A DNA stretch of 64,000 nt, taken from Myroides profundi (GTDB lineage Bacteria; Bacteroidota; Bacteroidia; Flavobacteriales; Flavobacteriaceae). The stretch's first letter is position 1, and each line of letters starts with the position of its first letter. Below, in pieces: positions 60,123 through 64,000 of this stretch. Below the pieces are notes generated by a model, which ran no database searches, was not told the DNA's origin, and saw only the letters and a list, made by a program, of their open reading frames with translations. Position numbers and translations under genes: made by a program. The DNA lies in contig NZ_CP010817.1 in the NCBI RefSeq assembly GCF_000833025.1, positions 4,000,535-4,064,534 of the forward strand. The letters are read 5' to 3'.

Positions 60123-60923
60123 TTATTTTTTAATTTTAGGATATACTTTCATGATATCAAAGTAGGAGTTTCTAAAGGCAACTAAGCTTTTATAACCTAC
60201 TTTAAAAGCGATTTCGCTCAAGGTAAATTCTCTTGTATCTACTAGCTCTATACTCTTCAAGATACGGATAATCTGAAGGTACTTCTGTAGAGTGATACCC
60301 GTCTCTAGTTTGAACAGGCGCTGTAGATTGCGCACAGACATGGTAGAGATACTGGCTAGTTCATCTAAGTCTAGCATTGAGGTAAAATGATCGTTGATAT
60401 AAGCACATACAGGTATTAGCCTATGATCTGTAGGGATAGGTAATTGAAGCGATTGATTCTCTTCACAGAACGATTTTAAACTAATGAGAATAGCCTGTAA
60501 GAACTGTTCTTTTTCTAGCTCTATTTGGATTACTCTATTCCACTTCGTCGCATACTGTAGCATCTCCCTCAGCACAGTAGGAGCAGGGAAGATATGTACT
60601 TGATTATAGAATGAGTCAGCTGGCACATCTTTATACAACAGTACTTTTAGGTTGATATCCTTCGCTGTAGAGGTAGTCGCGTGTTGCTGTCCTGAAGGTA
60701 TCCATGCTACGTGATACTGAGGGACTAGATAGATACAGTTATCTACGTGAAGGTACTGATAGCCCTGTTCTACATAGGTGAGCTGATATCGCTGATGAGC
60801 GTGCTGATACTCATCGTGAACGAAGTTGTCTTCATACCATACATACGCCTGTACCTCATTAGTATCATCATATACTCCTAAGAGCTTCTCGGTTAATCCA
60901 CATTTGATATTGGCGTTTTGCAT
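60123..60923 (-). CDS. AraC family transcriptional regulator
   Basis: A 266-residue regulator: N-terminal cupin-like sensor (HAHQRYQLTYVEQGYQYLHVDN, PSGQQHATT) and a C-terminal double helix-turn-helix (DLDELASISTMSVRNLQRLFKLETGITLQKYLQ...SEIAFKVGYKSLVAFRNSYFDIMKVYPK). I start at ATG 60923; the frame runs upstream to 60959, but the minus-strand promoter box at 60935-60942 would lie inside that version. Divergent from the flavodoxin-RidA gene, a likely target. Confidence 0.88.
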   Translation of the reverse strand: MQNANIKCGLTEKLLGVYDDTNEVQAYVWYEDNFVHDEYQHAHQRYQLTYVEQGYQYLHVDNCIYLVPQYHVAWIPSGQQHATTSTAKDINLKVLLYKDVPADSFYNQVHIFPAPTVLREMLQYATKWNRVIQIELEKEQFLQAILISLKSFCEENQSLQLPIPTDHRLIPVCAYINDHFTSMLDLDELASISTMSVRNLQRLFKLETGITLQKYLQIIRILKSIELVDTREFTLSEIAFKVGYKSLVAFRNSYFDIMKVYPKIKK

Positions 60924-60934
60924 ATATTTTTTGA

Positions 60935-60942
60935 CAAATATA
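60935..60942 (-). promoter_or_regulatory. Putative -7 promoter box (TATATTTG) of the AraC gene
   Basis: TAnnTTTG match on the minus strand, 11 bases from the ATG at 60923, giving a very short leader. It lies 17 bases from the plus-strand box at 60959, a compact divergent promoter. Confidence 0.5.
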
Positions 60943-60958
60943 ATATAAACTGCAAACA

Positions 60959-60966
60959 TACCTTTG
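60959..60966 (+). promoter_or_regulatory. Putative -7 promoter box (TACCTTTG)
   Basis: TAnnTTTG match on the plus strand, 23 bases before the ATG at 60990. Confidence 0.5.
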
Positions 60967-60989
60967 TGATTATACTTAAAATAAATAAT

Positions 60990-62135
60990 ATGAAAACATT
61001 ATATACTGCACTAATCACTTGTGCATTACTCTTCACAACAACACAGATTATGGCAAAAGATACCCTAACCAAAATATTAGTACTTATCCATTCTGATACG
61101 GGAGGTACATATAAAATGGCGCAAGAAATCGCTAAAGGAATAGAAAACAATCCTCACACAGAGGCGACTATAAAACTAGTACAGCCTTCAGAAAATGCAC
61201 TGTTACATGATCTACAGATAGCTACTCCTGAGGAGCTACCGACTTATGACGGAATCGTATGGGGATCTCCTGTATATTTTGGCAATATCAGTACTCCGAT
61301 GAGTGCCTTTCTTGCGAAGACAGTAGATCTATGGACAGCTCATGCTCTAGAGGGAATGCCTACAGCTGTATTTATGTCTGCTGGTAGCGGAGCAGGGAAG
61401 GAGCTAGCCTTACAGTCATTCTGGAATAGCCTAGCAGTACATGGGATGATACTCGTACCGAATGGCATCAGAGCTACGGAGAAGCTAGATAATAGCATCG
61501 CCCAAGGCAATAGTGTACTAGGAGCAAGTAGCCTTGCTTCAAACAAAACGGTGCAACGTCCTAGCGAAAGTGAACTGCTGATCGCCTATACGCAAGGTCA
61601 AAACTTCGCCAAAGTTGCCAAAGCCTTAAGAGGAACTTTTCAGAAGAAAGAGGAAAGTGCACCTAAACAAGTAGTCACTGATGTAGAAACTACGCTTAAA
61701 CAAAAGAACATCATACTACCTGTAGCCCCTAATCCTGTGGGGAACTACACGCCTTACTCACGCAGTGGAAATCTAGTATTCATCAATCAGGTAGCCTTAA
61801 AGGATGGAAAAATATTATATCCTGGTAAGGTAGGGGTAGACGTCTCTGAAGAACAAGCAAAGCAAGCAACTGAGCAGACGATGCTGAATGTAATCGCAGT
61901 GCTTAAACTAGCAGTGAATGGTGACCTCAACAGAGTAAAGAAAACAGTACAACTAACAGGTATATTCAACACCACTCCTGACTACTCTCAGCACGCTAAT
62001 CTAATGAATGTGGCATCAGATCTATCTGTAGCAATATTTGGAGAAAAAGGTAAACATGCTAGAGGTACTCTAGGTGCTACTTCTGTACCTGTCAACTCTG
62101 CAGTAGAGATACAAGCTATCTTCGAAATAGAGTAA
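60990..62135 (+). CDS. Exported flavodoxin-like/RidA-like fusion protein
   Basis: A 381-residue protein with a Sec-type signal (residues 1-22, MKTLYTALITCALLFTTTQIMA), a flavodoxin/WrbA-like domain (about 27-195; FMN phosphate loop HSDTGGTYKMA, WGSPVYFGNISTPMSAF) and a RidA/YjgF domain (about 245-381). The RidA arginine is present (HARGTLGA), but the usual VEIEA reads VEIQA, so the glutamate is Gln. Fusing these two folds with an export signal is unusual. Start chosen at the signal-peptide Met. The AraC gene is divergent. Confidence 0.85.
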   Translation: MKTLYTALITCALLFTTTQIMAKDTLTKILVLIHSDTGGTYKMAQEIAKGIENNPHTEATIKLVQPSENALLHDLQIATPEELPTYDGIVWGSPVYFGNISTPMSAFLAKTVDLWTAHALEGMPTAVFMSAGSGAGKELALQSFWNSLAVHGMILVPNGIRATEKLDNSIAQGNSVLGASSLASNKTVQRPSESELLIAYTQGQNFAKVAKALRGTFQKKEESAPKQVVTDVETTLKQKNIILPVAPNPVGNYTPYSRSGNLVFINQVALKDGKILYPGKVGVDVSEEQAKQATEQTMLNVIAVLKLAVNGDLNRVKKTVQLTGIFNTTPDYSQHANLMNVASDLSVAIFGEKGKHARGTLGATSVPVNSAVEIQAIFEIE

Positions 62136-62217
62136 TCAAAAAAGGTCTTTGAATACTGTTATTTCGTCTTATTGATAATCCCTAACTTGTCATTTCTAAC
62201 ACGCTAATAGGTTAGAT

Positions 62218-62688
62218 ATGCAGTATCCATCTTATTCATTTACAACAGATAGAGAAAACTCAATCTATGAATTTACAAGCATAGGTGAAAACCAAGCAAT
62301 CAAAAAATTAATTATCTTTACACCTGTCAAAGGTGAATATAAAGTTTATAACTTAAGCTTTGGAGATAGAACCAATTACGATGGTGATTTATTGCGTATA
62401 GATGATAGAATCGTAAGTAATAATGGTGATATGAATAAGGTTTTAGCTACTATATTTAGAGCTGTACTCAAATTTACGGAAGGCAAAGATTTTTATAAAA
62501 TATACTTTACTGGTAGTACTCCTTCACGCACACGATTATACAGAATGGCTATATCTAATAACTATAGTGAACTATCTAAACATTTCAGTATATACGGATT
62601 TGATATGGGAGGAAAAGTAGTATTCTTTGCTAAAAATAAAGAATATCAAGGTTTCTTAATCACACCTAATACGAACAGTATAAAATAA
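62218..62688 (+). CDS. DUF6934-like protein, unit 1 (156 aa)
   Basis: A 156-residue soluble protein. Motifs I recognise from the Bacteroidota DUF6934 family: YNLSFGD, IVSNNGDMNKVLATIFRAV, TGSTPSRTRLYRMAISNNY, and YGFDMGGKVVFFAKNKEYQGFLI. No catalytic site is known. The next gene starts 6 bases after its stop. It is the first gene of a unit that recurs at 63087 and 63945. Confidence 0.75.
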   Translation: MQYPSYSFTTDRENSIYEFTSIGENQAIKKLIIFTPVKGEYKVYNLSFGDRTNYDGDLLRIDDRIVSNNGDMNKVLATIFRAVLKFTEGKDFYKIYFTGSTPSRTRLYRMAISNNYSELSKHFSIYGFDMGGKVVFFAKNKEYQGFLITPNTNSIK

Positions 62689-62694
62689 GGCATT

Positions 62695-62910
62695 ATGAAA
62701 AAAAAGATTAATTCAAACGAAGTAAAGACTGATACTAATCCTAAAATCATCACTATTAATAAAAACCTAAGAGTCATTGACGAATCAGGTAAAATAGAAT
62801 ATGCAAATAATCTATTTGCACAGCTAAGAGCTTCAGGGGAGTTAGATATTTTCGAAGAGAGAGAAAGAAAGAAAAAAGAAGAATACGAAAAAGCACAAAA
62901 AGAATCTTAG
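62695..62910 (+). CDS. Small charged protein, unit 1 (71 aa)
   Basis: A 71-residue protein with a variable, beta-prone N-terminus and a very charged helical end (RASGELDIFEERERKKKEEYEKAQKES). The partner of the DUF6934-like gene, it probably acts with it; its 24-residue tail is almost the same in unit 2. It could be a small antitoxin- or adaptor-type partner, but nothing in the sequence decides. Confidence 0.75.
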   Translation: MKKKINSNEVKTDTNPKIITINKNLRVIDESGKIEYANNLFAQLRASGELDIFEERERKKKEEYEKAQKES

Positions 62911-63086
62911 TGCTCGTTCAACAATAACTAAAGGCTTTTAGTTCTCACTATTTCGCCTAGTAATACTTCTGATAACTAACGAATCTACTATCCATCTTCT
63001 TTGGATATAAACAGTCTTTGAATACTGTTATTTCGTCTTATAGATAATCCCTAACTTGTCATTTCTAACACGCTAAAAGGTTAGAT

Positions 63087-63557
63087 ATACAGTATCCATC
63101 TTATTCATTTACAACAGATAGAGAAAACTCAATCTATGAATTTACAAGCATAGGTAAAAACCAAGCAATCAAAAAATTAATTATCTTTGCTCCTATAAAA
63201 GCAGAAAAAAACTTGTATAATCTTAGCTTTGGCGATGCGAATGAATCAATAGATAAAAACGGTCTTATCAATGATACAATTACAAGTAATAATGGAGATA
63301 TGAAAAAGGTATTGGCTACTGTATTCAGAGCAGTATTGGCTTTTATACAGAATAAAAAAGAATGTAAAATAGTCTTTAGAGGTAGTACTCCTTCAAGAAC
63401 GCGATTATACAGAATAGCTTTATCTAATAACTATGATGAACTATCTAAATATTTTGATATCTATGGAATTAATCAAGACGGTAAACTCCTTTACTTTGAA
63501 AAAGACAAAGAATATATTGGTTTTCTAATTAATCCTCTCACTACTATTTTTAAATAA
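63087..63557 (+). pseudogene. DUF6934-like gene, unit 2, start codon ATG to ATA
   Basis: The frame is open and equal in length (157 codons with stop) to unit 1, but the codon at the start position is ATA (63087) instead of ATG. The first 35 codons are otherwise nearly the same as unit 1. A later start, e.g. TTG at 63213, would remove the first 42 residues, including the conserved N-terminus. It may be unexpressed, or ATA may be used at low level. From codon ~38 the protein diverges from unit 1 (PIKAEKNLYNLSFGDANESID). Confidence 0.6.
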
Positions 63558-63564
63558 AAACACA

Positions 63565-63780
63565 ATGAAAAAAGATATCTACTTAGGTGAAATCAAAGAG
63601 GGAGCTACTCCTACAGTAATATATTCGAATAACGAAGTTAATATTATAGATCGCTCAGGAAAGTTTGAAGAAATGACTGCTTTAGTAAAAAAGCTAAGAG
63701 CTTCAGGAGAGTTGGACATTTTCGAAGAGAGAGAAAGAAAGAGAAAAGAAGAATACGAGAAGGCACAAAAAGAATCTTAG
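63565..63780 (+). CDS. Small charged protein, unit 2 (71 aa)
   Basis: A 71-residue counterpart of the 62695 gene. The N-terminal half differs (IYLGEIKEGATPTVIYSNNEVNIIDRSGK), while the tail (RASGELDIFEERERKRKEEYEKAQKES) changes at one residue. It starts 7 bases after the end of the preceding frame. Confidence 0.75.
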   Translation: MKKDIYLGEIKEGATPTVIYSNNEVNIIDRSGKFEEMTALVKKLRASGELDIFEERERKRKEEYEKAQKES

Positions 63781-63944
63781 TGTTTATTCAACACTTTTAG
63801 TTCTCACTATTTCGCCTAAAATACTTCTGATCACTAACGAATCTACTATCCATCTTCTCTGGATATACACCGTCTTTGAATACTGTTATTTCGTCTTATA
63901 GATAATCCCTAACTTGTCATTTCTAACACGCTAATAGGTTAGAT

Positions 63945-64000
63945 ATGCAGTATCCATCTTATTCACTTACAACAGATAGAGAAAACTCAATCTATGAATT
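63945..64000 (+). CDS. DUF6934-like protein, unit 3 (cut by window edge)
   Basis: The 5' end of a third copy, with intact ATG and the same first 18 codons as unit 1 apart from Phe8 to Leu. It shows that the array continues beyond the window. Confidence 0.75.
   Translation, partial: MQYPSYSLTTDRENSIYE

Follow-up and report, generated by a model that had tools for sequence, protein, structure and literature searches.

Tandem DUF6934 and small-partner genes in Myroides profundi: a candidate toxin-antitoxin array probably reshaped by unequal exchange

The stretch of Myroides profundi contig NZ_CP010817.1 analysed here (64,000 nucleotides, positions 4,000,535 to 4,064,534; hereafter the window) runs at its right end into a tandem array, in which a gene of the DUF6934 family is followed, unit after unit, by a small gene encoding 71 amino acids (aa). 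We lean towards the view that the units are toxin-antitoxin operons of a type II-like kind, ordered 'toxin first', in an array that turns over by unequal exchange. The original prediction, made from the window alone, had offered a toxin-antitoxin role as a guess; judged from sequence, this guess appears strengthened by partner proteins fused to XRE domains, by a partner lying in frame behind a broken DUF6934, by an orphan small gene and by the loss of a DUF6934 whose small gene was kept.

Pairing of DUF6934 with a small downstream gene

A genome scan with 58 DUF6934 sequences as queries found 424 relatives, the best 80 of which were taken (79 loci fetched); nearly all are labelled Bacteroidota, with exceptions that include two Ignavibacteria and one Limnohabitans bin. 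DUF6934 is present in 18 of 395 sampled genomes of the phylum. The family sample contains it in 16 of 249 genomes and the genus sample in 8 of 61, seven in each case being over the Pfam cut-off; all three samples include the Myroides genome studied, and the sub-cut-off rows of the family and genus samples (L023, L029-L038) were dropped. From the best 80 of the 424 relatives and the genome samples we drew 110 distinct modules (L039-L117, L017-L020, L119, L150-L175), among which relatives close to the queries are therefore over-represented. Some genomes occurred in two collections, and identical genes were counted once; L118, apparently the same locus as L045, was excluded.

A downstream partner accompanies DUF6934 in 108 of the 110 modules: 82 match a partner profile (which was itself built from up to 40 of them), and 26 further modules carry an open reading frame (ORF) of 38-90 aa at the partner position. 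L082 and L020 show neither, and L020 is the single DUF6934 of the 110 with no partner fusion either, so that the predicted co-occurrence of a small partner is borne out. Seven loci looked at separately, outside this count (L021, L022, L024-L028), all have a small ORF downstream. The ORF test alone was positive for 113 of 120 DUF6934 matches (duplicates and fragments included) versus 54 of 257 neighbouring genes. Two adjacent co-directional genes, one of them small, are the arrangement expected of a type II toxin-antitoxin system.

Most partners have 50-71 aa (42-87 in all those seen), next to a DUF6934 protein of about 150 aa, and the canonical partner has the consensus MKxxxLNxxKxPIVxIDKxLxKxxxKxLFPEKLxKANEMLxKxGLPK. 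The partner profile matches 6 of the 395 genomes, every one of them with DUF6934, and misses 12 of the 18 DUF6934 genomes, which have partners of other types; eight of its nine matches touch a DUF6934, the ninth (L183) being solitary. The 71-aa Myroides partner is not claimed as a proven homologue of the canonical one (hhalign score 10.1). DUF6934 genes in close pairs also occur at L166/L175, L054 (the same locus as L152/L167), L066 and L059. One genome (G403; L151, L166, L171, L173-L175) has eight DUF6934 matches, two in tandem, and in one of the eight the DUF6934 frame is broken and the partner intact.

Two loci extend the partner by fusion. At L072 (5450-5791) a partner segment (E 5e-9) is followed by a C-terminal XRE/HTH_3 domain, a build shared by two database proteins akin to it. 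At L082 (5450-5779) a 110-aa gene likewise holds a partner-like segment and then an XRE domain; the segment was found with the first partner profile (E 6e-4) and missed by the second. The two records are labelled Cytophagales and Cytophagia. Such fusions are natural candidates for autoregulation. Elsewhere, Pfam showed no XRE or other DNA-binding domain in two canonical partners or in the unit 1 and unit 2 small proteins (for those of units 3 and 4 the scans covered PADLOC, NCBIfam and PHROGs only). At L164, in the same genome and contig (C6) as L172/L181, a partner segment continues in frame from the C-terminal half of a broken DUF6934.

This near-constant pairing and the in-frame arrangement of L164 would fit any obligate complex, so the two proteins could be subunits of one stable enzyme or regulator without antagonism, the small one acting as folding partner or lid; the purifying selection on both genes described below is equally compatible with this. 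Nevertheless, small genes without DUF6934 exist (unit 4 of the array and L183), XRE fusion is typical of antitoxins, and a patchy presence with array turnover is unusual for a housekeeping enzyme, which makes a partnership without antagonism unlikely in our eyes.

Mosaic structure and decay of the Myroides array

The window reaches the contig end (4,064,534) and the array resumes at the contig's first bases (L006), where extension to the right brings the count to three DUF6934 and 71-aa units plus a fourth small gene of 68 aa. The direct repeats lie 869 and 858 bases apart, confirming the period of about 860 bases first proposed (Table 1).

Table 1. Features of the array (window positions; L006 positions count from the first base of the contig). 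Unit starts were set by the leader motif.
Feature	Position	Strand	Remark
Leader of unit 1	62148..62217	+	70 bases
Unit 1 DUF6934 gene, 156 aa, putative toxin	62218..62688	+	Pfam PF22028, E 8.9e-48
Unit 1 small partner gene, 71 aa, putative antitoxin	62695..62910	+	
Leader of unit 2	63017..63086	+	near-identical to leaders of units 1 and 3
Unit 2 DUF6934 frame, 156 codons	63087..63557	+	PF22028, E 3.3e-46 over 63105-63554
Unit 2 small partner gene, 71 aa	63565..63780	+	
Leader of unit 3	63875..63944	+	
Unit 3 DUF6934 start	63945..64000	+	onward to contig bases 1 to about 415 (L006)
Unit 3 small gene, 71 aa	L006:423-638		
Fourth DUF6934, tail remnant	L006:746-793		
Fourth small gene, 68 aa	L006:797-1003		

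In the unit alignment, identity per 60-column window was 98, 97, 93, 57, 70, 62, 86, 67, 65, 58, 48, 77, 93, 72 and 92% between units 1 and 2, and 100, 95, 95, 60, 72, 72, 82, 75, 62, 55, 57, 89, 100, 98 and 96% between units 2 and 3. Across columns 1-180, spanning the leader plus some 36 codons, the three units are 90-100% identical to one another, the core windows are 48-86% identical between units 1 and 2, and the small-gene end with the intergenic stretch reaches 72-93% (units 1/2) and 89-100% (units 2/3). The profile is thus not smooth, and the near-identical ends of the original prediction stand; its divergent cores need qualifying, since units 1 and 3 share 88-92% identity in parts of the core, and the profile is patchy, more than a matter of ends against middle. 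The longest identical runs measure 134 nt (units 2/3) and 66 nt (units 1/2), either of which was reached in 0 of 2000 site shuffles; that of units 1/3 (65 nt) was reached in 8 of 2000, and a 105-nt run that unit 1 shares with the orthologous pair of M. odoratimimus CCUG 39352 stands out less, as 64 of 2000 shuffles reached it.

Nei-Gojobori estimates of non-synonymous (dN) and synonymous (dS) divergence point the same way. Between the DUF6934 genes of units 1 and 2, dN and dS are 0.04 and 0.05 in codons 1-36 versus 0.34 and 0.95 in codons 37-156, while unit 1 and the CCUG 39352 orthologue differ by a dS of 0.15 and 0.21 in the same segments. The first codons are thus closer between paralogues than between orthologues, a likeness for which recent exchange between units accounts and protein constraint does not; this supports the proposed duplication with homogenised ends. 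Between the small genes of units 2 and 3, dS falls from 1.18 over the first 43 codons to 0.07 over the last 28 (where units 1/2 have 0.42). Divergence is common to the DUF6934 core and the first portion of the partner, whereas the partner's last portion is homogenised. The array has likely changed by unequal exchange at leaders and tails, which would leave cognate pairs intact, as the exchange points flank both cores. Diversification driven by selection, which had also been envisaged, finds no support: dN/dS is 0.14-0.36 across ten pairs in DUF6934 codons 37-156 (sub-segments up to 0.49), which is evidence against diversifying selection, and 0.28-0.45 across six pairs in small-gene codons 1-43, with no positive selection seen in these pairwise values.

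The array is also marked by one-sided loss. Unit 2 DUF6934 begins with ATA, without ATG, GTG or TTG at the start, and the reading frame of unit 3 DUF6934 is broken, leaving unit 1 as the only ordinary DUF6934 gene of the array; the small ORFs of all four units are intact. The fourth DUF6934 is reduced to 15 codons of its tail, reading YFVFLITPIHKNLNF*, directly before the fourth small gene and preceded by the beginning of the common leader; 10 of its 15 residues match, by eye, the C-terminus of P0013 (YLGFLITPIDENLKF). Because this remnant and the leader beginning sit before the fourth small gene, a fourth DUF6934 was evidently deleted and its partner kept. The Pfam profile (E <= 10) retrieved no further DUF6934 in the genome.

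The closest named database proteins come from Myroides odoratimimus or Myroides sp. At the same locus, M. odoratimimus CCUG 39352 (L039; 94% identity in the best DUF6934 stretch) carries a pair of complete units, of which the second has a 68-aa partner resembling the fourth small gene of the array studied, and Myroides sp. N17-2 (L040) has one DUF6934, one full small gene and then a second small frame without a visible ATG start, so that the site has one to three DUF6934 genes in the three genomes read. It might be argued that the array mainly represents neutral debris, in which a mobile unit of two genes, duplicated by chance, recombines and decays, since of the three DUF6934 genes two seem impaired, and a fourth was deleted. 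We regard this as quite improbable, given that the four small ORFs are all intact, that core dN/dS lies below 0.5 between units and strains, and that the module occupies the site in all three Myroides genomes examined. The tandem layout with an extra small gene also resembles the immunity arrays of contact-dependent or secreted polymorphic toxins, with DUF6934 as cargo; the one-to-one pairing in nearly all modules speaks against this, and DUF6934 is the only Pfam domain of the 156-aa protein (no search was aimed at secretion genes or large secreted DUF6934 proteins), so that an effector/immunity array is very hard to credit.

Upstream of each array lies a YjgF/flavodoxin-type gene, common to the three Myroides genomes, and downstream a gene that we take to be RpiB-like in all three. 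In the window, the upstream gene (60918-62135) holds flavodoxin/FMN-reductase-like and YjgF/RidA-like parts in one reading frame. Just 5' of the unit 1 DUF6934 start, and at the matching place in units 2 and 3, the leader carries an inverted repeat (TCTAAC/GTTAGA, 62195-62216) with extra CTAAC/CTAAT copies nearby, which is a possible operator. Leader RNA folds weakly better than shuffles (z-scores -0.8 to -2.1); promoter-like sites were at chance level (9 versus 9.9 expected), and the same scan found no terminator-like sites.

The anti-phage role suggested in the original prediction would be compatible with a toxin-antitoxin function. The module might then serve abortive infection, with an array that offers several specificities and turns over under phage pressure. 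This could account for the patchy distribution of DUF6934 and for its presence in two IMG/VR contigs. In a survey of up to four neighbours at 80 loci (265 proteins; 262 scanned against Pfam in two batches of 131, one batch against PADLOC), defence-model matches were scattered, e.g. HamA, AbiTii and PD-Lambda-2_B with one protein each among the 131, a count that had no baseline. However, no dominant family emerged among these neighbours, the families listed (25 of 134 and 25 of 129) were largely housekeeping, the Myroides site has the flanking genes described above, and the two DUF6934 and four small proteins of the array gave no PADLOC, NCBIfam or PHROGs match at E <= 0.001. We consequently find little to commend the anti-phage reading, and it seems improbable. 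The unit 1 small protein had no match at E <= 1 in Pfam, NCBIfam or PHROGs, its single PADLOC row being a homing endonuclease model at E 0.017; the Epsilon_antitox match of one canonical partner (E 0.049) was below cut-off and disregarded.

Predicted fold and proposed mechanism

Units 1 and 2 are clear DUF6934 members (162.4 and 157.3 bits versus the PF22028 gathering score of 27 bits). The AlphaFold model of the unit 1 protein (predicted local distance difference test, pLDDT, 88.7) resembles AtaT, KacT, TacT and GmvT in VIA-align, and its predicted fold appears GNAT-like. In this model Asn69, Asp71, Arg104, Arg106, Leu107 and Tyr108 (unit 1 numbering), which are conserved across DUF6934, would precede helix alpha-3 and fall at the beta-5/alpha-4 junction of the GNAT fold. 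At the sequence level, GNAT membership was rejected: hhalign against 28 GNAT proteins of the same genome gave 13.3, column shuffles reached up to 22.2, and the 156-aa protein matched only DUF6934 and no GNAT family in Pfam. A PAL/OmpA match among PDB sequences (E 0.075) was at chance level. A fold search of viral models also retrieved large phage proteins holding a DUF6934-like fold region (E 4.7e-6 to 1e-2), mostly uncharacterised, with one named as Zeta toxin domain-containing and two as ParB/Sulfiredoxin.

From these observations we infer a toxic activity, its neutralisation in a complex, a chemistry and a target. DUF6934 would be a toxin with a GNAT-like fold, its conserved residues surrounding the place that acetyl-CoA takes in GNAT enzymes, and the downstream small protein an antitoxin that would bind it and block the active cleft. 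The operon would thus yield an inactive complex, and loss of the antitoxin would free DUF6934 to modify a cellular target, perhaps by group transfer to a component of translation. The XRE-bearing partners of a few lineages could also repress their operon. At its one chromosomal site, the Myroides array may grow and shrink through unequal exchange at its near-identical leaders and tails; the control region would thereby stay uniform, and old, divergent toxin/antitoxin cores would change place. Toxin genes would decay or vanish and antitoxins persist, as expected if antitoxin loss is costly.

PMC9177977 describes acetyltransferase genes in toxin-antitoxin-like two-gene loci, whose short ORFs are divergent and without predictable DNA-binding domains, and suggests that such acetyltransferases may pair with unidentified antitoxins. 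A mini-antitoxin without a DNA-binding domain would fit this picture. A bolder, speculative version, doubtful when all its parts are taken jointly, is that DUF6934 founds a new, mostly Bacteroidota toxin superfamily in which a GNAT-like scaffold, having lost the ordinary acetyl-CoA loop, carries out a different transfer reaction at a conserved Asn-Asp / Arg-x-Arg-Leu-Tyr site, restrained by fast-diverging mini-antitoxins that can gain XRE repressor domains by fusion and arrays that shuffle cognate pairs under an invariant leader.

If the toxin-antitoxin interpretation is correct, several hundred family members from sequenced species would gain a function; the interpretation also predicts the identity of the antitoxin gene and the location of the active site. 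The Myroides array would then be a natural experiment on pair duplication, exchange of ends and loss of toxins with their antitoxins kept.

Relation to known toxin-antitoxin systems

Pfam lists PF22028 as a family of unknown function, and neither DUF6934 nor PF22028 is mentioned in the literature searched. The closest parallels are the GNAT-DUF1778 systems (TacAT, AtaRT, KacAT), with which the modules share the two-gene unit and the small partner, and whose toxins the predicted fold of the large protein resembles. In contrast to them, DUF6934 has no Pfam GNAT match or profile similarity, none of the six partner proteins scanned against Pfam matched DUF1778, and the toxin gene would come first. 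HigBA-type operons are 'reverse order' toxin-antitoxin systems with XRE antitoxins; they resemble the modules in the position of the putative toxin gene and, at L072 and L082, in the XRE domain of the partner, whereas DUF6934 has no RelE/HigB-type Pfam match and the other partners scanned lack XRE. The modules fall outside the GNAT-DUF1778 systems by toxin sequence and antitoxin type, and their anatomy is like that of a type II toxin-antitoxin operon.
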